DNA from: Mitsuaria sp. 7
GTDB taxonomy: Bacteria > Pseudomonadota > Gammaproteobacteria > Burkholderiales > Burkholderiaceae_C
DNA length: 64,000 nucleotides
Direction: 5' to 3'
NCBI RefSeq assembly: GCF_001653795.1
Contig: NZ_CP011514.1
Coordinates: 2,581,715 to 2,645,714 of the forward strand
Each line of letters opens with the position of its first letter. The stretch's first letter is position 1. Of this stretch, positions 9,160-17,901 are shown piece after piece. The notes under the pieces were generated by a model. The model ran no database searches. It was not told the origin of the DNA and saw only the letters and a program-made list of their open reading frames with translations. Made by a program: the position numbers and the translations under genes.

Positions 9160-9609
9160 CTAGGGGGACGATTTCTCCGGCGCTTCTCGATTCCTGATCG
9201 GACGCGTCACCTGCTTGGCGACGCAGGACGGCAGGCCTTCGGTGTCGGCCGCGGCGTCGCGGCGGTAGACGCTGGGCGGCACGCCCACCAGCTCGGTGAA
9301 CCGGGTGCTGAAGGTGCCCAGCGAGGAGCAGCCGACCTCGAAGCAGATCTCGGTGACGCTGAGGTCGCCGCGGCGCAGCAGCGCCATGGCGCGCTCGATG
9401 CGGCGGGTCATCAGGTAGGCGTAGACGGACTCGCCGTAGGCCAGGCGGAACTGCCGGCTCAGGTGGCCGGCCGACATGCCGATGCCCTGCGCCAGCGCCT
9501 CGACGTCCAGCGGCTGGGCGTACTCGCGGTCGATGCGGTCACGGACGCGCCGCAGGCGAGCAAGGTCGCGCAGCCGGGTGCTTGGAGGATCGTCGGGCGC
9601 AGCGTGCAT
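9160..9609 (-). CDS. AraC family regulator, DNA-binding domain only
   Basis: 149 residues, essentially a stand-alone AraC/XylS DNA-binding domain with two helix-turn-helix units (LAQGIGMSAGHLSRQFRLAYGE; ICFEVGCSSLGTFSTRFTELVGVPP). There is no ligand-binding domain, so it resembles SoxS/MarA-sized regulators. I chose the ATG at 9609: the frame extends 21 codons further upstream, but those codons lie in a 45-bp dispersed repeat and are not gene-specific. It probably controls the VOC-DUF1801 genes that follow on the same strand. Confidence 0.85.
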   Translation of the reverse strand: MHAAPDDPPSTRLRDLARLRRVRDRIDREYAQPLDVEALAQGIGMSAGHLSRQFRLAYGESVYAYLMTRRIERAMALLRRGDLSVTEICFEVGCSSLGTFSTRFTELVGVPPSVYRRDAAADTEGLPSCVAKQVTRPIRNREAPEKSSP

Positions 9610-9640
9610 CCGGACATCGTACTCAGCTCTACTGCCACCA

Positions 9641-9685
9641 CCGCTGGCCCTCACCCCCACCCTCTCCCGCAAGCGGGAGAGGGAG
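9641..9685. repeat. 45-bp dispersed palindromic repeat, copy 1
   Basis: This copy contains an 11-bp-arm hairpin (CCTCTCCCGC-AA-GCGGGAGAGG core) plus a 20-bp flank. It is inverted relative to copy 2 at 9731-9775 with a single mismatch, and matches copy 3 at 46920-46963. Together copies 1 and 2 can also form one long cruciform between the AraC and STM4015 genes. Confidence 0.85.
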
Positions 9686-9730
9686 TCCGGCCGGATCGAC
9701 TCGCGGCGCCTGATCCTCTTGCTCCTCTTG

Positions 9731-9775
9731 CTCCCTCTCCCGCTTGCGGGAGAGGGCGGGGGTGAGGGCCAGCGG
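9731..9775. repeat. 45-bp dispersed palindromic repeat, copy 2
   Basis: Inverted copy of the element at 9641-9685. As it lies 104 bp before the STM4015 start, it could act as a terminator or insulator between the AraC unit and the six-gene cluster. It also supplies an in-frame but unrelated upstream extension for the STM4015 gene. Confidence 0.85.
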
Positions 9776-9878
9776 TCTCGCCACTCCGCCGTCGTCCGGA
9801 CCCCGGTTCCCGTGCATCAAACCGTCGCTTCGTTCCGCTATCCTTCGCGGCTCAATCGAACACCCAGTGGAGGGGGTC

Positions 9879-10796
9879 ATGACCATCTCGGAGCGCACGG
9901 AAACCTTTTTCGGCAAGACCGTCCAGGACTACGAGGGCGGTGCCGTCACCGGCGGCCCCGGCGTGGTCCACCGGCTGGTGCTGGACTACGACGACGACCG
10001 CAGCCTCGTGGCCCTGCTCGACGAGTACCTCGCGCAGGTCGATCCCGGCCAGCTCGAAGCCCTGATCCTCGGTCGCTGGAATGAACCGCACGACGACGGT
10101 CCCGACCCCGTCCTGGACCGCCTCGCCGAACTCGCGCCGCAACTCCCCAGGCTCAAGGCGCTGTTCGTCGGCGACATGACCTACGAGGAGTGCGAGATCT
10201 CCTGGATCATCCAGGGCACGCGCTACGGCCATCTGCTGCAGGCCTTCCCCCAACTGGAAGTGCTGCGCATCCGCGGCGCCACCTCGCTGGAATGGCAGCC
10301 CCTGACCCACGCCAACCTGCGCGAACTCACCATCGAGAGCGGCGGCCTGCCGTCGGAGATCGCCAAGGCGCTCGCCGAATCCTCGTTCCCGGCGCTGACC
10401 CACCTCGAGCTGTGGCTGGGCACTGACGGCTACGGCTTCGACGGCGACGTCGCGCTGTACCGCCAGGTGCTGGCGACACTGCGCACGCCGACGCTGCGCG
10501 TGCTCGGCCTGCGCGACTCGGAGATCGCCGACGACCTGGCCGTCTGGCTGGCCGGTGAATCCTGGGTCGCCTCGCTGTACACGCTGGACCTGTCCCTCGG
10601 CACGATCGGCGACGCCGGCGCCAAGGCGCTCCTTGCCAGCCCGCACGTCGCCTCGCTGAAGCGGCTGGACCTGTCGCACCACTACATCTCCGAGCCGCTG
10701 CAGGCGCAGCTGCGCGCGGCGATCCCCGGCGTGGTGCTCGACGATGCGCAGGACAGCGGCGACGACGACGACCGCTACGTCGCCGTCGGCGAGTGA
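9879..10796 (+). CDS. STM4015 family protein (leucine-rich-repeat-like)
   Basis: 305 residues. This family is named after a Salmonella locus and has no known function. The sequence shows repeated Leu-rich units (LEVLRIRGATSL, LRELTIESGGLP, LTHLELWLG, LYTLDLSLGTIGDAGAKAL, LKRLDLSHHYIS), i.e. a leucine-rich-repeat-like solenoid that may bind a protein partner. The ATG at 9879 has a strong ribosome binding site (GGAGGGGG) and is preferred over upstream in-frame codons inside a dispersed repeat. It is the first gene of six; its TGA overlaps the next GTG. No signal peptide, so cytoplasmic. Confidence 0.85.
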   Translation: MTISERTETFFGKTVQDYEGGAVTGGPGVVHRLVLDYDDDRSLVALLDEYLAQVDPGQLEALILGRWNEPHDDGPDPVLDRLAELAPQLPRLKALFVGDMTYEECEISWIIQGTRYGHLLQAFPQLEVLRIRGATSLEWQPLTHANLRELTIESGGLPSEIAKALAESSFPALTHLELWLGTDGYGFDGDVALYRQVLATLRTPTLRVLGLRDSEIADDLAVWLAGESWVASLYTLDLSLGTIGDAGAKALLASPHVASLKRLDLSHHYISEPLQAQLRAAIPGVVLDDAQDSGDDDDRYVAVGE

Positions 10797-11878
10797 GCCG
10801 GAGCGTCCGCATGACCCGATGGGTGGTGCTGGGCGTGGGCGACGGCAAACGCGCGCGCGGCCTGCAGGCCGCCGCCGCGACCGCCGGCGTGCCAGTGCAG
10901 GTCGTCGAATGGCGGGACTGGCTCGCCGGCTCCCCCGCCCTGCCCGATGCGTTGCGGACGCCGTGCCGCTTCAAGGTCGAGCCGCCGGGCGACGATCCCC
11001 AGGCTCACCTCGCGCTGCTGCACCTGGGCTGCGAGCGCCTCGGCCGGGCGCCCTGCCCCGCCCCCGAGCGCGGTGAGCTGGTGGGCGCCGATGCCTGGTT
11101 CGCCGGCTTCGAAGCCGCAATGCAGCGTCTGACGGCGCTGCTCGCGGAGCGACCGTTGGCCGAGCCCGTGAACGCCCCCGACGAGATCGTCGCCATGACC
11201 GACAAGCTGCTCTGCCAGCAGCGCCTGCGCGAACACGGCATCGCCACCGCCCCGCTGCTGGGCGCGGTGGACGGCTACGACCACCTCGTCGCGATGCTCG
11301 ATCGCGAGGACCTCGATCGCGTGTTCGTCAAATCGCGCTACGGCTCCTCGGCCGCCGGCGTGATCGCCTACCGCCGCGGCGCCGGCCGCCAGCAGGCCAC
11401 CACCTCGGCGCTGCTGCACGACGACGGCCAGCGCCTGTTCAACGTCAAGCGGCTGCGCGCCTACCAGCGCCCCGACGAGATCCGGCGCGTCATCGACCTC
11501 GTGGCCGCCCAGGGCGCCTACGTCGAGGCCTGGCTCCCGAAGCCGCGCGCCGGCAGCGGCCATTTCGACCTGCGCGTCGTCACCTTCGCCGCGCGGGCCG
11601 CGCACCGGGTGGCGCGGGTGGGACAACGGCCGATGACCAACCTGCACCTGGACAGCGAGCGCGCCGATCCCGCCCGGCTGATGCCGTCGCACGACCTGTC
11701 CGCCATGGAAGCGACGGCCGAACAGGCCGCCCGCGTGTTCCCGCGCGCCGGCATCGTCGGCTTCGACCTGGTGGTGCGCCGCGGCGAGGCGCGCGTCCTG
11801 GAAGCCAATGCCTTCGGCGATCTGCTGCCTGGTCTGCTCTGGCAAGGGCGCGACACCTACGCCACCGCGCTGACCTGA
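10793..11878 (+). CDS. STM4014 family protein (ATP-grasp-like)
   Basis: 361 residues. The central region (KLLCQQRLREHGIATAPLL, RVFVKSRYGSSAAGVIAY) and the carboxy-terminal GIVGFDLVVRRGEARVLEANAFGD look like an ATP-grasp ligase: a lysine-bearing ATP-binding strand and a terminal E-x-N metal site. Such enzymes join a carboxylate to an amine or thiol through an acyl-phosphate. The GTG at 10793 overlaps the STM4015 stop (GTGA); an ATG at 10811 is the alternative start. The real substrate is unknown. Confidence 0.85.
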   Translation: MSRSVRMTRWVVLGVGDGKRARGLQAAAATAGVPVQVVEWRDWLAGSPALPDALRTPCRFKVEPPGDDPQAHLALLHLGCERLGRAPCPAPERGELVGADAWFAGFEAAMQRLTALLAERPLAEPVNAPDEIVAMTDKLLCQQRLREHGIATAPLLGAVDGYDHLVAMLDREDLDRVFVKSRYGSSAAGVIAYRRGAGRQQATTSALLHDDGQRLFNVKRLRAYQRPDEIRRVIDLVAAQGAYVEAWLPKPRAGSGHFDLRVVTFAARAAHRVARVGQRPMTNLHLDSERADPARLMPSHDLSAMEATAEQAARVFPRAGIVGFDLVVRRGEARVLEANAFGDLLPGLLWQGRDTYATALT

Positions 11879-11879
11879 T

Positions 11880-11940
11880 CCGATGAGCCATCCGCAGAGT
11901 CCTCCGATGAGCCCTCCGATGAGCGATCCGATGAGCCAGG
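11880..11940. repeat. Degenerate 12-bp repeat with multiple start codons
   Basis: The unit TCCGATGAGC recurs four times around positions 11880-11936 and gives ATG codons at 11883, 11907, 11919 and 11931, all in the frame of the STM4013-type gene. It encodes a Met-Ser-x-Pro repeat ahead of the conserved fold. Confidence 0.75.
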
Positions 11941-12743
11941 ACCTCGACATGAACCGCGTGGTCGGCACCCACGACCTGGTGCTGATCACCTTGGACACGC
12001 TGCGCTTCGACGTCGCGCAGGACCTGTTCGAGCGCGGCGAGCTGCCGACGCTCGCGCGGCATCTGCCGGCCGGCGGCTGGGAACGCCGCCATTCGCCGGG
12101 CAGCTTCACCTACGCGGCCCACCACGCCTTCTTCGCCGGTTATCTGCCCACGCCGGCGGCGCCCGGTCGTCATGCCCGGCTGTTCGCGAGCGCCTTCCGC
12201 GGCAGCGAGACCACCGGGCGGCGCACCTTCGCCTTCGAGGAGGCGTCGCTGCCCGAAGCGCTGGCGGCGCGCGGCTATCACACGATGTGCATAGGCGGCG
12301 TCGGCTTCTTCAACAAGCAGAACGCGCTGGGCCGGGTGCTGCCGGGGCTGTTCGCCGAGAGCCACTGGAATCCCTCGCTCGGCGTGGGTCGGCGCGACTC
12401 GGCCCGGCGGCAGGTCGCGCTGGCCGTGGAACGCTTGAACGCCGTCGAGGGTCGGGTCTTGCTGTTCATCAACGTGTCGGCGCTCCATGCGCCCAACCGC
12501 GTGCACCTGCCCGGCCGCGACGAGGACTCGATCGAGACCCACGCCGCCGCGCTGCGCAGCGTCGATGCGGCGCTGGCCCCGCTGTTCGAGGCCTGCGCCG
12601 CGCGCGCGCCGACCTTCGTCATCGCCTGTTCCGATCACGGGACCGCCTACGGCGAGGACGGCCACCACGGCCATCGCGTCGCGCACGACGTCGTGTGGAC
12701 CGTGCCCTACGCGCAATTCTTCCTCGGGAGTTCCCAGTGCTGA
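11883..12743 (+). CDS. STM4013/SEN3800 family sulfatase-fold hydrolase
   Basis: 286 residues of the alkaline phosphatase/sulfatase superfamily: LVLITLDTLRFD at the start of the fold holds the metal Asp, and CSDHGTAYGEDGHHGHR holds the second metal site (D-H-G and H-x-x-H). The nucleophile region is near SPGSFTYAAHHAFFAGYLP. It lacks a signal peptide, unlike exported sulfatases. Five in-frame ATG codons (11883, 11907, 11919, 11931, 11949) are created by a 12-bp repeat; the conserved fold starts after the last one, so the true start is open. Confidence 0.85.
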   Translation: MSHPQSPPMSPPMSDPMSQDLDMNRVVGTHDLVLITLDTLRFDVAQDLFERGELPTLARHLPAGGWERRHSPGSFTYAAHHAFFAGYLPTPAAPGRHARLFASAFRGSETTGRRTFAFEEASLPEALAARGYHTMCIGGVGFFNKQNALGRVLPGLFAESHWNPSLGVGRRDSARRQVALAVERLNAVEGRVLLFINVSALHAPNRVHLPGRDEDSIETHAAALRSVDAALAPLFEACAARAPTFVIACSDHGTAYGEDGHHGHRVAHDVVWTVPYAQFFLGSSQC

Positions 12744-14146
12744 AGACGCTGTCCCTGGCCGATGCGATGCGTCGCGGGGCCTACCAGACCTACTCCTACA
12801 GCTATCCGCACAAGAGCGCCTACCGGGCGCTGGCGGCGCCGCGCGCGCTGGACGCGCTGTGGGCCGCGGAGGACCGCTCGGCGCTCTTCGCCTATGTGCA
12901 CCTGCCCTTCTGCACGATGCGCTGCGGCTTCTGCAATCTCTTCGCGATGGCGCAGCCGGACGACGCGCTGGTCGACGCCTACGTCGACGCGGTGGTGCGG
13001 CAGATGCAGGTGATGGATCGCGTCCTCGGCGAGCGGCGCTTCGCGCGTCTTGCGCTGGGCGGCGGGACGCCGACCTTCCTCTCGGCGGGTCAGCTCGAGC
13101 GGATCTACGCGGGCGCCGGGCGCTGGCTGGGCATCGATCTCGCGGCCACGCCGTCGGGCATCGAGGTCTCGCCGGAGACCGTCACGCGCGAGCGCCTGCA
13201 GGTCTGCCGCGCCATGGGCGTGCGGCGCGTCAGCATGGGCATCCAGAGCTTCGCCGAGGCGGAGATGCGGGCGCTGGCGCGACCGCAGCAGAACCGCGTC
13301 GTCGCCGAGGCGATCGCGGAGATCCGCCACGCCGGCTTCGAGGTGATGAACCTGGACCTGATCTACGGCATCGCCGGCCAGACGCCGGCGAGCTGGCTGG
13401 CGTCGCTCGACAGCGCGCTGGCCTTCGCGCCGGAGGAGCTCTACCTGTACCCGCTCTACGTGCGCGCGCCCACCGGCTTGGGCAAGCTGGCGATCCGGCG
13501 GGCCGATCAGCTCGGAGCAGGCGGCGGAATCAGCAGCGGAATCAGCGGGGAGGTAGCCGGCGGAATGGGCGACGGCAAGGGCGGCGAGGATCTGCGCCAG
13601 ACGCTCTACCTGCTCGCGCGTGATCGCCTGCGCGCGGCCGGCTACCGCCAGGTCTCGATGCGCATGTTCCGCGCGCCGCATGCGCCGCAGGACGACGGCC
13701 CGGTGTACTGCTGCCAGGACGACGGCATGGTGGGGCTGGGCGCGGGCGCGCGCTCCTACACACGCACGCTGCACTGGTCCACCCACTACGCGGTCGAGCG
13801 CGCCGCCACGCGCGACATCGTGCAGGACTTCATCGCGCACGACGACGGACAGTTCGCGCACGCACGCTACGGCTTCGAGCTGGACGGCGAGGAGCAGCGG
13901 CGACGCCACGTCATCCAGTCATTGCTGACCGAGCCGGGCCTGTCGCACGCGGCCTATGCGCAGCGCTTCGGCGCCGATGTCCTGGACGAGCTGCCGCAGC
14001 TGCGTGAACTGGTCGCCCTGGAGCTGGCGGACGACGATGGGACGCTGCTCGCGCTGAACGAGCGCGGCATCGCCTACGCCGACACCATCGGGCCGTGGCT
14101 CGCCTCGACGCGGGTGCGCGGGATGAGTGCCGGCGACACATGCTGA
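12737..14146 (+). CDS. STM4012 family radical SAM protein
   Basis: 469 residues, related to the HemN/HemW branch of radical SAM enzymes. The [4Fe-4S] motif is Cys59-x3-Cys63-x2-Cys66 (CTMRCGFC), followed by a GGGTPTFL glycine motif for SAM binding and the MGIQSF and LDLIYGIAGQT strands. The usual HemW-like carboxy-terminal region is present. A Gly/Ser/Met-rich insertion of about 20 residues sits near residue 258. The likely start is GTG 12737, overlapping the previous gene by 7 bp. The reaction is unknown. Confidence 0.9.
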   Translation: MLKTLSLADAMRRGAYQTYSYSYPHKSAYRALAAPRALDALWAAEDRSALFAYVHLPFCTMRCGFCNLFAMAQPDDALVDAYVDAVVRQMQVMDRVLGERRFARLALGGGTPTFLSAGQLERIYAGAGRWLGIDLAATPSGIEVSPETVTRERLQVCRAMGVRRVSMGIQSFAEAEMRALARPQQNRVVAEAIAEIRHAGFEVMNLDLIYGIAGQTPASWLASLDSALAFAPEELYLYPLYVRAPTGLGKLAIRRADQLGAGGGISSGISGEVAGGMGDGKGGEDLRQTLYLLARDRLRAAGYRQVSMRMFRAPHAPQDDGPVYCCQDDGMVGLGAGARSYTRTLHWSTHYAVERAATRDIVQDFIAHDDGQFAHARYGFELDGEEQRRRHVIQSLLTEPGLSHAAYAQRFGADVLDELPQLRELVALELADDDGTLLALNERGIAYADTIGPWLASTRVRGMSAGDTC

Positions 14147-15024
14147 CCCTGCCCCTGCAGACCCCGCCCCTGCTGACCCTGCTCTACCGGGGCAGTCTGG
14201 AGAGCTGCAACTACACCTGCGGCTACTGCCCGTTCGCCAAACGGCGCGACTCGCGGGCCACGCTGGCGCGCGACGCGGCCGAAGTGGCCCGGTTCGTCGC
14301 CTGGGCGGCCGGCCAGACACGGCCGCTGCGCGTGCTGTTCACGCCCTGGGGCGAGGCGCTCGTGCGGCGGCACTACCGCGAGGCGATGCTCGCGCTGGCC
14401 GCGATGCCGCACGTGTCCCAGGTCGCTCTCCAGACCAACCTGTCCGGACCGCTCGCCTGGCTGGCCGACGCGCCGGCGGGCAAGTTGTCGCTGTGGTGCA
14501 CCTATCACCCCGGCCAGACGACGCTGGCGCGCTTCGTCGAACGCACGCAGCGGCTGGATGCGATGGGCGTGCGCCATTCGGTGGGCGTGGTCGCTCGGCG
14601 CGAGCATTACGACGACATCCATGCGCTGCGCGCGGCGCTGCCGTCGGGCAGCAGCGTCTGGCTCAACGCGTACGACCGGCGCGGGCCGGGGTACTACACC
14701 GCGGACGACCTCGCCTGGATGGAGGCCATCGATCCGTGGTTCGGACTGCAGCACGCACCGCCGCCGTCGCGCGGCGCGGCATGCCGTGCCGGGTCCGAGG
14801 TGCTGTCGGTCGACGGCGACGGCGAACTGACCCGCTGCCACTTCATCCCGCAGCGCCTGGGCAACCTTTACGCGGATGCCCTCGACGAGGTGCTGAAGGA
14901 GCGCCGTTGCAGCCGCCTGCGCTGCGATTGCTTCATCGGCTACGCGCATCGGCGCGACCTGCCCTTGCACGAGCAGTTCGGCGACGGGCTGCTGGCGCGC
15001 ATCCCGATCGCGGCGACACCATGA
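14140..15024 (+). CDS. STM4011 family radical SAM protein
   Basis: 294 residues. The canonical Cys23-x3-Cys27-x2-Cys30 motif (CNYTCGYC) binds the radical SAM cluster. Additional cysteines in ACRAGSEVLSVDGDGELTRCHF and CSRLRCDCF near the end resemble a SPASM/twitch auxiliary iron-sulfur region, as in enzymes that modify peptides. ATG 14140 overlaps the STM4012 stop (ATGCTGA). It is probably cytoplasmic and acts in the same pathway as its five neighbours; the substrate is unknown. Confidence 0.9.
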   Translation: MLTLPLQTPPLLTLLYRGSLESCNYTCGYCPFAKRRDSRATLARDAAEVARFVAWAAGQTRPLRVLFTPWGEALVRRHYREAMLALAAMPHVSQVALQTNLSGPLAWLADAPAGKLSLWCTYHPGQTTLARFVERTQRLDAMGVRHSVGVVARREHYDDIHALRAALPSGSSVWLNAYDRRGPGYYTADDLAWMEAIDPWFGLQHAPPPSRGAACRAGSEVLSVDGDGELTRCHFIPQRLGNLYADALDEVLKERRCSRLRCDCFIGYAHRRDLPLHEQFGDGLLARIPIAATP

Positions 15025-15524
15025 TCGTGTGGTTCACTGGCCGCCCGGCCGCCGGCAAGACGACGGTCGCGACCGCGGTGGTCGAGCGTCTGCAGGCGCA
15101 GGGACGATCCGCGCAGTTGCTCGACGGCGACGTGCTGCGCCGAGAGATCAGCCAGGACCTGGGCTTCTCGCGGGCCGACCGCGACGAGCAGGTTCGCCGC
15201 GCGGCCATGGCGGCGCGCGCGCTGGCCGACACGGGGGTCGTCGCGGTGGTGGCGCTGGTGTCGCCGTTCCGCGAGGCGCGTGCGCACGCACGAGCGTTGT
15301 GTGCCCCGCACGCGTTCCTCGAGGTGTACGTCGACGCGCCGCTCGACGTCGCCGAGGCGCGCGATCCGAAGGGCCTGTACCGACGCGCCCGCCGCGGCGA
15401 GATCGCCGAATTCACCGGCATCGATTCGCCGTACGAGACGCCGGAGTCACCGGACCTGCGACTGGATGCCGCGGCGCTGCCGCCGGCATCGCTGACGGAC
15501 GAGGTCATGCAGCGACTGCGCTGA
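15021..15524 (+). CDS. Adenylyl-sulfate kinase-like P-loop kinase
   Basis: 167 residues, close in layout to CysC: Walker A GRPAAGKTT (residues 7-15), LLDGDVLRREISQDLGFSRADRD, VSPFREAR, and the lid segment DPKGLYRRARRGEIAEFTGIDSPYE. CysC phosphorylates adenosine 5'-phosphosulfate at the 3' position with ATP to make PAPS, the sulfate donor. It overlaps the STM4011 gene by ATGA, and no ATP sulfurylase or PAPS reductase gene is nearby. A role within the cluster is therefore more likely than bulk sulfur assimilation. Confidence 0.8.
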   Translation: MIVWFTGRPAAGKTTVATAVVERLQAQGRSAQLLDGDVLRREISQDLGFSRADRDEQVRRAAMAARALADTGVVAVVALVSPFREARAHARALCAPHAFLEVYVDAPLDVAEARDPKGLYRRARRGEIAEFTGIDSPYETPESPDLRLDAAALPPASLTDEVMQRLR

Positions 15525-15529
15525 GCGCT

Positions 15530-15594
15530 CGATTCGAGGGTTCGATTCAAGGAGTCGATTCAAGGGGTCGATCCGAGCGGTCGATCCGAGCCGG
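15530..15594. repeat. 13-bp tandem repeat, five copies
   Basis: Units of the form TCGATYCRAGGRG follow one another after the APS-kinase-like gene, drifting from TCGATTCGAGG to TCGATCCGAGCGG. They fill most of the first 70 bp of the 178-bp gap before the OsmC-YcaO gene. No protein or RNA gene is seen in the gap. Confidence 0.8.
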
Positions 15595-15702
15595 CGACAA
15601 TGGAGGGATTCCCGCGGGCAAGGATCGTCCCCTGCCCGCCTGGTTGTCGCTGGCCGTCGCCGCCCGCCGCAGCCGCCCCCCTTTTCGTTTCAGAGCAGTC
15701 CC

Positions 15703-17901
15703 ATGGAAATCAAGGTCAACTTTCTCGACAAGCTTCGCCTGGAAGCCAAGTTCGATGATTTCACGGTCATCGCCGACCAGCCCATCCGCTACAAGGGCGA
15801 CGGCTCGGCGCCGGGTCCGTTCGACTATTTCCTGGCCTCCTCGGCCCTGTGCGCGGCCTACTTCGTCAAGCTGTACTGCGTCACGCGCGACATCCCGACC
15901 GAGAACATCCGCCTCTCGCAGAACAACATCGTCGACCCGGAGAACCGCTACCAGCAGATCTTCAAGATCCAGGTCGAGCTGCCGGCGGACATCTCCGAGA
16001 AGGACCGCCTGGGCATCCTGCGCTCCATCGACCGCTGCACGGTCAAGAAGGTGGTGCAGGCCGGGCCGGAGTTCGTGATCGAGGAGGTCGAGAACCTCGA
16101 CGCCGACGCGCAGGCGCTGCTGACGCTGAATCCGGATTCGACGGCGGCGACCTACATCCCGGGCAAGGACCTGCCGCTGGAGCAGACCATCGCCAACATG
16201 ACGGCGATCCTGGCGAACCTGGGCATCAAGATCGAGATCGCCTCCTGGCGCAACCTGGTGCCCAACGTGTGGTCGCTGCACATCCGCGACGCGCACTCAC
16301 CGATGTGCTTCACCAACGGCAAGGGCGCCACCAAGGAAAGCGCCCTGGCCTCGGCCCTGGGCGAGTACATCGAGCGCCTGAACAACAACCACTTCTACGC
16401 GGGCGTGTTCTGGGGCGAGGACATCGCCAACGCCGCCTTCGTGCATTACCCCGATGAGCGCTGGTTCAAGCCCGGCCCCGACGATGCGATTCCTGAAGGG
16501 CTGCTCGACGAGCGCTGCCTCGCCTGGTTCGACCCCGACGGCGAACTGCGCGCCTCGCACCTGATCGACACCAACTCCGGCAATGTGGAGCGCGGCATCT
16601 GCGCGCTGCCCTATGTGCGGCGCTCCGACGGCGAGGTGGTCTGGTTCCCGTCCAATCTCGTCGAGAACCTGTACGTCAGCAACGGCATGAGCGCCGGCAA
16701 TACGCTGGCGGAAGCGCAGGTGCAATGCCTGTCAGAGATCTTCGAGCGTGCCGTCAAGCGCGAGATCCTGGAAGGCGAGATCGCCCTCCCCGACGTGCCG
16801 CAGGACGTGCTGGACAAATACCCCGGCATCGTGGCCGGCATCCGCAGCCTGGAGGAACAAGGCTTCCCGGTGCTGGTGAAGGACGCGTCGCTGGGCGGCG
16901 TCTATCCGGTGATGTGCGTGACGCTGATGAACCCGCGCACGGGCGGCGTGTTCGCCTCCTTCGGCGCGCATCCCAGCCTGCAGGTCGCGCTGGAACGCAG
17001 CCTGACGGAACTGCTGCAGGGCCGCAGCTTCGAAGGCCTGAACGACCTGCCCCGGCCCACCTTCGCGAGCAACGCCGTCACCGAGCCCAACAACTTCGTC
17101 GAGCATTTCATCGATTCCAGCGGCATCGTGTCGTGGCGCTTCTTCAGCGCCAAGGCCGATCACGAGTTCGTCGAGTGGGACTTCTCCGGCGAAGGCGCCG
17201 ACTCGAACGCCGAGGAAGCCGCGACGCTGTTCGGCATCCTCGACGACATGGGCAAGGAGTCCTACATGGCCGTGTACGACCAGCTGGGCGCGACGGCCTG
17301 CCGCATCCTGGTGCCGGACTACTCGGAGATCTATCCGGTCGAGGACCTGATCTGGGACAACACCAACAAGGCCCTGTCGTTCCGCGAGGACGTGCTCAAC
17401 CTGCACCGGCTGGACGACGAGCAACTGGAAGCGCTGCTGGAACGCCTCGAGGACAGCGAGCTCGACGACTACACCGACATCGCCACGATGATCGGCATCG
17501 AGTTCGACGAGAACACGGTGTGGGGTCAGTTGACCATCCAGGAACTGAAGCTGCTGATTCATCTGGCCTTGCAGCAGCTCGAAGAGGCGCAGGAACTGGT
17601 CGGCGCCTTCCTGCAATACAACGAGAACACGGTCGAGCGCGGCCTGTTCTATCAGGCCGTGAACGTGGTGCTGGAAGTGCTGCTGGACGACGAGCTGGCG
17701 CTCGACGACTACGTCGTCAACTTCCGCCGGATGTTCGGCGACGAACGCATGGATGCGGTCCTCGGGTCCGTGGACGGCAGCGTGCGCTTCTACGGCCTGA
17801 CGCCGACCAGCATGAAGCTGGAAGGCCTCGACCGGCATCACCGCCTGATCGACAGCTACCGCAAGCTGCACGCGGCGCGGGCAGCCGCGGCGGCTCGCTG
17901 A
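15703..17901 (+). CDS. ycaO: OsmC domain/YcaO domain fusion protein
   Basis: 732 residues: an OsmC-like domain (about 1-140; includes SSALCAAYFVKLYC), a YcaO ATP-binding cyclodehydratase-type domain (about 150-560; TNGKGATKESALASALGEYIER carries the ATP-binding Glu residues), and an acidic helical carboxy-terminal region. E. coli YcaO lacks the fused OsmC part and takes part with RimO in methylthiolation of ribosomal protein S12. Other YcaO proteins activate peptide amides with ATP. This fusion is a stand-alone gene 178 bp downstream of the radical SAM cluster. Confidence 0.9.
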   Translation: MEIKVNFLDKLRLEAKFDDFTVIADQPIRYKGDGSAPGPFDYFLASSALCAAYFVKLYCVTRDIPTENIRLSQNNIVDPENRYQQIFKIQVELPADISEKDRLGILRSIDRCTVKKVVQAGPEFVIEEVENLDADAQALLTLNPDSTAATYIPGKDLPLEQTIANMTAILANLGIKIEIASWRNLVPNVWSLHIRDAHSPMCFTNGKGATKESALASALGEYIERLNNNHFYAGVFWGEDIANAAFVHYPDERWFKPGPDDAIPEGLLDERCLAWFDPDGELRASHLIDTNSGNVERGICALPYVRRSDGEVVWFPSNLVENLYVSNGMSAGNTLAEAQVQCLSEIFERAVKREILEGEIALPDVPQDVLDKYPGIVAGIRSLEEQGFPVLVKDASLGGVYPVMCVTLMNPRTGGVFASFGAHPSLQVALERSLTELLQGRSFEGLNDLPRPTFASNAVTEPNNFVEHFIDSSGIVSWRFFSAKADHEFVEWDFSGEGADSNAEEAATLFGILDDMGKESYMAVYDQLGATACRILVPDYSEIYPVEDLIWDNTNKALSFREDVLNLHRLDDEQLEALLERLEDSELDDYTDIATMIGIEFDENTVWGQLTIQELKLLIHLALQQLEEAQELVGAFLQYNENTVERGLFYQAVNVVLEVLLDDELALDDYVVNFRRMFGDERMDAVLGSVDGSVRFYGLTPTSMKLEGLDRHHRLIDSYRKLHAARAAAAAR

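Follow-up and report, generated by a model that had tools for sequence, protein, structure and literature searches.

The STM4011–STM4015 gene cluster of Mitsuaria sp. 7 and a possible modification system for the C-terminal tail of a leucine-rich repeat protein

The stretch of 64,000 nucleotides from Mitsuaria sp. 7 analyzed here (contig NZ_CP011514.1, positions 2,581,715 to 2,645,714; hereafter the window) carries six consecutive genes, the first five of which belong to the families STM4015 to STM4011, named in descending order, and the last of which encodes an adenosine 5′-phosphosulfate (APS) kinase. The five-gene core is a real and recurrent system that has no assigned function and bears placeholder names only. 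With a likelihood that we place a little above even, it is a C-terminal-tail modification system built on STM4015, a leucine-rich repeat (LRR) protein. The features are as follows:

9879..10796, plus strand: STM4015 family protein of 305 aa with an LRR body and the C-terminal tail GDDDDRYVAVGE (NF038076, 311.1 bits, cut-off 275)
10755..10793, plus strand: last 13 codons of STM4015, an acidic linker and the conserved tail ending in RYVAVGE (stop codon at 10794-10796); proposed modification site
10793..11878, plus strand: STM4014 family ATP-grasp ligase, ArgX/LysX/RimK-like (NF038074, 319.2 bits, cut-off 175)
11883..12743, plus strand: STM4013/SEN3800 family hydrolase of the alkaline-phosphatase superfamily, probable Thr nucleophile T76 (NF038075, 397.4 bits, cut-off 250)
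12737..14146, plus strand: STM4012 family radical S-adenosylmethionine (SAM) protein, HemN-like (NF006067, 544.4 bits, cut-off 380)
14140..15024, plus strand: STM4011 family radical SAM protein with SPASM/twitch-like C-terminal Cys (NF038073, 361.5 bits, cut-off 200)
15021..15524, plus strand: APS kinase, CysC-like, accessory sixth gene (PF01583, 195.5 bits; TIGR00455 apsK, 198.9, cut-off 138.7)
9581..15698, no strand: segment missing between retained flanks in two genomes of the genus (flank comparison, G009 and G005)

The six-gene plus-strand set had been described in a first-pass annotation of this DNA, and all six open reading frames (ORFs) are indeed open and intact between 9879 and 15524. 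STM4014 and STM4012 start with GTG (an ATG is possible for STM4014 at 10811). The junctions are, in order, a 4-bp overlap, a 4-bp gap, two 7-bp overlaps, and a 4-bp overlap, to which the earlier description (overlaps of 4–12 bp or a 4-bp gap) came close. Its assignment of the first five genes to the STM4011–4015 families holds, as all five exceed the curated NCBIfam cut-offs; the kinase gene, which it called fused, is a separate gene. Pfam finds LRR, Sulfatase/Phosphodiest, Radical_SAM with HemN_C, and APS_kinase in the window proteins.

Related loci were retrieved with the hydrolase alone, giving 593 stretches and 575 relatives, of which the best 80 were kept; because of this retrieval, the 80 named loci are the closest, nonrandom sample. 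Their genus labels are those of the records, several being labels of metagenome-assembled genomes (MAGs). All five families occur together in 63 of the 80, in several phyla, with Janthinobacterium contributing 11 of the complete loci. The pathway had earlier been made to depend on co-occurrence in other genomes, and for loci found by the hydrolase only, the association of all five genes is far beyond chance. The 17 incomplete loci are mostly cut contigs; in L045, L046, L047, L052, L057, and L066, the flank is sufficient and part of the five-gene set is not nearby. Plasmid records hold clusters in Salmonella, Deinococcus, Methylobacterium, Paenibacillus, and Streptomyces, and complete five-gene sets are present in five of the six plasmid clusters retrieved (six of 15 plasmid matches). 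That the families lack an established function had been claimed before and agrees with the open-licence literature: in the portions of these papers available, the STM4011–4015 names occur as table mentions with no function given, and open-licence papers on combinations of radical SAM, ATP-grasp, RimK, leucine-rich repeat, and RiPP (ribosomally synthesized and post-translationally modified peptide), on SEN3800, or on DUF6745 provided none.

Among closer relatives, the hydrolase is matched above the cut-off in one of 16 genomes of this genus and in two of 299 genomes of the family, namely the source genome and G634; among 398 genomes drawn across the phylum, it occurs in the source genome only. 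The two same-genus genomes G009 and G005, which have no hydrolase, keep both flanks with 88.8 to 94.8% identity. Because the counterparts of window positions 9580/9581 and 15699 lie only ~125 bp apart in them, the whole of segment 9581-15698 was gained or lost as a discrete unit. A palindromic CCCTCTCCCGC...GCGGGAGAGGG was noticed by eye in two copies at 9658-9755, just upstream of the cluster and inside the segment that these relatives lack.

The C terminus of STM4015 was compared in 99 proteins, a set that takes L019 as its sole Janthinobacterium locus and omits L016 (cut ends) as well as STM4015 matches below 150 bits. Herein, Glu is the final residue in 97 proteins, position -6 is Tyr or Phe in 98, position -3 is Val, Ile, or Leu in 94, and position -7 is Arg in 87. 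The typical C terminus consists of an acidic stretch followed by R-Y-V-A-V-x-E, as in the window protein, which terminates in DDDDRYVAVGE; Asp and Glu make up 40% of the pretail stretch versus 15.6% overall. The middle positions vary, and the strict pattern RY[VIT][AESD]Vx[EDQ] fits 43 of the 99 tails. In the other four core proteins, the final residues are mixed. A second sample, the best 120 of 3298 protein-search matches, terminates in Glu throughout (120/120), which is a weak independent test because it overlaps with the first sample and because the search profile contains the tail. The seven STM4015 proteins encoded in the five complete plasmid clusters have a terminal Glu as well, the Salmonella tail being otherwise different. 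In alignment A4, the frequency of the top residue is 0.22 in the gappy linker, 0.55 in the body, and 0.73 in the tail. Since a weakly conserved linker precedes a well-conserved end, the tail looks to be under a selection of its own.

The AlphaFold2 model of STM4015 has a mean predicted local distance difference test (pLDDT) score of 94.6, with a confident LRR body and a tail of lower confidence. The nearest solved fold is 2ra8 (template modeling score 0.80 of the query), a structural-genomics entry of Bacteroides fragilis Q64V53 that is listed as "uncharacterized" in the PDB and is a homolog of STM4015 (profile E 1e-79). Its alignment reaches the last profile position and ends in ...YSYPMITE, meaning that the final Glu is shared, whereas the chain is longer by an extra N-terminal part. 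STM4015 is present in one copy in 45 of the 63 complete loci, in two copies in 12, three in 3, four in 2, and six in 1. N-terminal additions include WGR in the Myxococcus protein tested and a DAVLGGQ-PPP-VVLGG module in cyanobacteria. In the cyanobacterial loci L034, L037, L038, L048, L056, L060, and L069, this module (with a following EGV/I) is common to STM4015 and neighboring proteins, with WD40 and GUN4_N-like proteins among those tested.

STM4014 is paired with STM4015. Its closest solved folds and profile neighbors are ArgX, LysX, and RimK, which attach amino acids to the C-terminal Glu of a protein. Five residues (K132, K174, Asp319, Glu331, and Asn333) are invariant in 60 of 60 proteins and presumably correspond to the metal- and ATP-binding residues of ATP-grasp enzymes. 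From these neighbors, we infer that STM4014 belongs to the narrower ArgX/LysX/RimK ligase class. Other ATP-grasp enzymes score nearly as well. Pfam RimK (PF08443) matches three of 33 STM4014 members at E 0.01, the window protein not being one of them, and ATPgrasp_ST matches 21 of the 33. The GSWGR motif, by which LysX and ArgX recognize EDWGE, occurs in 0 of 60 STM4014 proteins.

The fold alignments leave aside most Janthinobacterium loci, some paralogs, and all plasmid loci. STM4012 is HemN-like and has CxxxCxxC in 25 of 25 sequences. STM4011 combines CxxxCxxC (C23, C27, and C30) with five further Cys in 27 of 27; these auxiliary residues are arranged as C215-x12-G228-x4-C233, followed by C257, C262, and C264, a spacing that we take to be the SPASM/twitch motif CX9-15GX4C. 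The best PDB profile match of STM4011 is SkfB (E 7e-4).

In STM4013, T76, D38, D228, D251, and H252 are invariant (32 of 32). Most of its profile matches in the PDB are sulfatases or nucleotide pyrophosphatases, with an arylsulfatase as the best (E 1.5e-6). The formylglycine motif [CS]x[PA]xR is missing at the nucleophile; as a pattern, it is found in two of the 32 proteins, at residues 220 and 265, far off. The earlier designation as a sulfatase-fold hydrolase is supported by Pfam as regards the fold, but the nucleophile motif of sulfatases is not there. Because of Thr76 and the missing motif, phosphate chemistry is likelier than sulfate chemistry, and STM4013 probably acts on a phosphoryl group. 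HAD hydrolase genes, located after STM4011 in Salmonella and inside the operon in Planctomycetales L062, give a hint of phosphorylated groups as well. On a Streptomyces albidoflavus plasmid (L101 7726-9889), a divergent STM4013 has as neighbors a NUDIX hydrolase, a lasso-peptide B2 protein, and an orphan of 81 aa, and the stretch retrieved carries no annotation for STM4011, STM4012, STM4014, or STM4015.

In the proposed mechanism, the acidic LRR protein STM4015 would be the carrier or target that presents a tail with a final Glu. STM4014 would activate a carboxylate of this Glu with ATP and attach an amine, either an amino acid or a small amine. STM4011 (SPASM/twitch-type) and STM4012 (HemN-like) would then modify the tethered group or the tail by radical chemistry, and STM4013 would remove or transfer a phosphoryl group by means of its probable Thr nucleophile. 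In a few Comamonadaceae-type clusters, the added APS kinase would supply 3′-phosphoadenosine 5′-phosphosulfate (PAPS) or a phosphorylation step. We infer the tail Glu as the ligation site, together with the covalent loading, the amine, the order of the steps, and the release. The product may be released, as from an amino-group carrier, or stay on the protein for good, as with RimK. Since no peptidase was recognized across genera among the recurrent neighbors, we give these two outcomes about equal odds. Editing of a peptide tag by ATP-grasp ligation and radical chemistry, as formerly proposed, agrees well with the data, and the tag may be the STM4015 tail itself.

More speculatively, and as a possibility that we hold only tentatively, the cluster would represent a phylum-spanning biosynthesis on an LRR-protein carrier, in which LysX-like loading on the terminal Glu, rebuilding of the tethered group by radical SAM enzymes, and finishing by the hydrolase yield a new metabolite or a protein-bound cofactor. 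If right, this would be an LRR-protein-based branch of biosynthesis or modification on a protein C terminus, joined with radical SAM chemistry, in carriers of STM4011–4015 that range from Salmonella, Deinococcus, and Streptomyces to Myxococcus and cyanobacteria. The prediction comes down to a single residue, the last Glu of STM4015 as the ligation site of STM4014, which makes a cluster of unknowns experimentally tractable.

Amino-group carrier systems, such as LysW with LysX/ArgX and Vzb22 for (2S,6R)-diamino-(5R,7)-dihydroxyheptanoic acid (DADH), share with this cluster an acidic carrier with a final Glu encoded beside an ATP-grasp ligase. The ligase is more basic than the carrier in both, and both ArgX and LysX rank among the top structural neighbors of STM4014. 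By analogy, STM4015 may work like a LysW-type carrier. It differs in being a 300-aa LRR protein rather than a small zinc protein, and its tail is RYVAVxE instead of EDWGE, with a partner ligase devoid of GSWGR. DWGE is found in none of 58 STM4015 proteins, and zinc-binding Cys are not conserved in them (CxxC in one of 58, the best Cys column reaching 48%); because both the EDWGE tail and the zinc Cys are missing, STM4015 is not classed as a LysW-type carrier. In place of LysZ, LysY, LysJ, and LysK, which make up the LysW-pathway set according to the available part of PMC10433800, the cluster has two radical SAM enzymes and a hydrolase of the AP fold. Compared with RimK, which is the C-terminal glutamate ligase of ribosomal protein S6, STM4014 has as its proposed target an adjacently encoded LRR protein and is accompanied by two radical SAM enzymes; Pfam RimK matches few of its family members. 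The pearlins (3-thiaGlu, 3-thiahomoleucine, and ammosamide), made with a peptide aminoacyl-tRNA ligase (PEARL), are similar in building on a protein C terminus, and the 3-thiahomoleucine case includes radical SAM tailoring (PMC9303977, in the part available). Pearlin assembly takes place on a carrier peptide and employs a tRNA-dependent ligase and a protease, whereas the STM4011–4015 cluster has an ATP-grasp enzyme and a large LRR protein. No PEARL ligase or protease was recognized among the recurrent neighbors, of which some representatives only were run against Pfam.

The sixth gene was followed across the loci. Of the 80, 69 contain STM4011, and in 66 the sequence visible beyond it extends for 700 bp or more; a CysC-like gene comes directly after it on the same strand in two of these 66 (Acidovorax Leaf78 and Variovorax MEDvA23), which answers the frequency count that had been suggested. 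As the kinase is also linked in the source genome and in G634, it is found with the cluster in four genomes and not in one, and is thus a genuine lineage-specific addition. In a Myxococcales MAG (L084), an APS kinase lies on the opposite strand, ~2 kb from the hydrolase. The earlier proposal was to fail if the kinase stood next to the cluster only here and behaved as a normal CysC; it is linked more widely, and the contact residues checked are those of CysC. That it points to sulfation or phosphorylation as the theme is not supported, given the two of 66 loci and the hydrolase without formylglycine motif at the nucleophile.

The window kinase is the sole PF01583 match in the source genome. In Variovorax, the cluster kinase is likewise the only strong match, and a further match with a higher score exists in the Acidovorax genome. 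The genus does not need the cluster kinase for sulfate assimilation: an APS-kinase match is missing in nine of 16 genomes, and the CysH of the source genome contains KACCGVRKLEPL and GCAPCTR, a cysteine pattern that reads as the APS-reductase type, so that PAPS should not be needed for this purpose. The sulfotransferase families PF00685 and PF13469 have no match in the source genome, the search being confined to these two.

The window kinase exceeds the TIGR00455 cut-off and retains K13, D35, D37, R40, F49, R54, R114, K117, and F131, which correspond to residues reported to be involved with APS and ATP in Mycobacterium CysC (PMC4373884, in the part available). Hence, it resembles CysC in all APS and ATP contacts checked and differs from it in being encoded in the cluster, in a genus that can assimilate sulfate without it. 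At the position of the essential Cys556 of Mycobacterium CysC, it has Ala, as do 90 of 125 aligned sequences, a comparison that leaves aside five of the seven native APS kinase loci (L104-L108). All four linked kinases carry another residue (Q, Q, G, and S) in place of the Asn of the ENIRR motif, and the two clades containing them each have strong support (0.994 and 0.997). A kinase with a changed substrate was considered and is not claimed, since this Asn is missing in 37 of the 125 sequences and is not among the contacts given in the available part of PMC4373884. Judged by its residues, the cluster kinase may still make PAPS, and it is read as a working APS kinase recruited as a minor accessory.

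Several alternatives to tail modification were weighed. A small-molecule pathway, in which STM4015 serves as a noncovalent scaffold, STM4014 joins two free metabolites, the radical SAM enzymes tailor the product, and the tail acts as a signal for docking or assembly that keeps the enzymes on the LRR protein, is unlikely in our estimate. LRR proteins are common binding scaffolds, C-terminal peptides are common docking signals, the neighbors of STM4014 include glutathione synthetase, D-Ala-D-Ala ligases, and DcsG, and Pfam ATPgrasp_ST and YheCD match more STM4014 members than RimK does. Such a role for the tail sits uneasily with its terminal residue being the most conserved position and acidic (Glu in 97 of 99), and the top-ranked folds of STM4014 are enzymes acting on protein C-terminal Glu. 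Rather improbable is a RiPP-like route, for which PqqA and mycofactocin offer the comparison: the tail would be a core peptide, modified at Tyr, Val, or Glu by radical SAM enzymes and then cleaved, with the LRR body as an outsized leader. The SPASM/twitch-like Cys of STM4011 and its best match SkfB, a RiPP enzyme, suit this idea, as do the conserved Tyr and Glu of the tail, the multiple STM4015 copies in some clusters, the lasso-peptide B2 protein near the divergent STM4013 on the Streptomyces plasmid, and the prolyl-oligopeptidase gene near 11 Janthinobacterium loci. This peptidase is, however, confined to a single genus, with none recognized across genera; an ArgX/LysX/RimK-type ATP-grasp enzyme would be superfluous; and a "core" conserved across phyla behind a varying "leader" is the reverse of what most RiPP families show.

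The sulfation or phosphorylation centered on the kinase, with CysC making PAPS, the product being sulfated, and STM4013 removing the sulfate or phosphate, appears quite improbable. It draws on the kept contact residues (shared with Mycobacterium CysC in the available part of PMC4373884), on a kinase that is the only PF01583 match of its genome and linked in four, and on the arylsulfatase as best profile match of STM4013; it is weakened by the rarity of the kinase downstream of STM4011 (2/66), by the lack of PF00685 and PF13469 matches, these being the sulfotransferase families searched, and by Thr76 in place of a formylglycine motif. An antiphage defense or other conflict system, for which the sporadic distribution (hydrolase in two of 299 family genomes), the discrete insertion or loss, and the arrays of STM4015 paralogs could speak, is very improbable: five of the six proteins have no PADLOC match, and the sixth, STM4012, has a partial one only.

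The surroundings of the cluster were compared at two levels. From the gaps and flanks of 70 loci, 1509 small ORFs of 30–110 aa were taken, and among the 12 groups listed, no separate precursor peptide conserved across phyla was recognized save a ~100-aa HEEH/QREY protein that travels with DUF6745, which is the only cross-phylum group; the search for a nearby precursor peptide, advised earlier, yielded no other candidate in these groups. The remaining groups listed look like lineage synteny or shadow ORFs. Clustering of ORFs of at least 60 aa into recurrent groups of four or more genera yielded chiefly Janthinobacterium and Lysobacter synteny as well as shadow ORFs. Recurring across genera are the DUF6745 pair, an ABC ATPase family seen in six genera at a median distance of 1.6 kb, and an MFS family seen in four at 3.0 kb; the latter two, with one member each identified, are taken as unrelated to the cluster. 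The Janthinobacterium prolyl-oligopeptidase gene is found immediately downstream in the opposite orientation, and the single example tested matches Peptidase_S9.

DUF6745 (PF20530 in three members tested) and its ~100-aa GHxH/HEEH companion form a two-gene unit that accompanies the cluster in Deinococcus, Methylobacterium, Streptomyces, Chloroflexota, and Planctomycetota:

L098 9979-11276: DUF6745 two-gene unit
L099 3489-4814: the same unit
L102 2162-3626: the same unit
L049 5223-6625: the same unit
L063 8193-9659: the same unit
L078 and L080: the same unit

The companion has a terminal Asp in 17 of 17 proteins. The DUF6745-like proteins from genome loci terminate in ET or QT (19/19), and the Deinococcus one in EA. 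Both proteins are perhaps further tail substrates.

A locus labeled Comamonas sp. KCTC 72670 (L061, BNCN01000003.1) shows a Myxococcus-type arrangement with a long STM4015 pair on the opposite strand, and its label may be wrong. In the window itself, an OsmC-YcaO protein (Pfam OsmC, YcaO, and YcaO_C) is encoded downstream of the insertion at 15703-17901; it has a match in only three of 16 same-genus genomes (E 1e-50).

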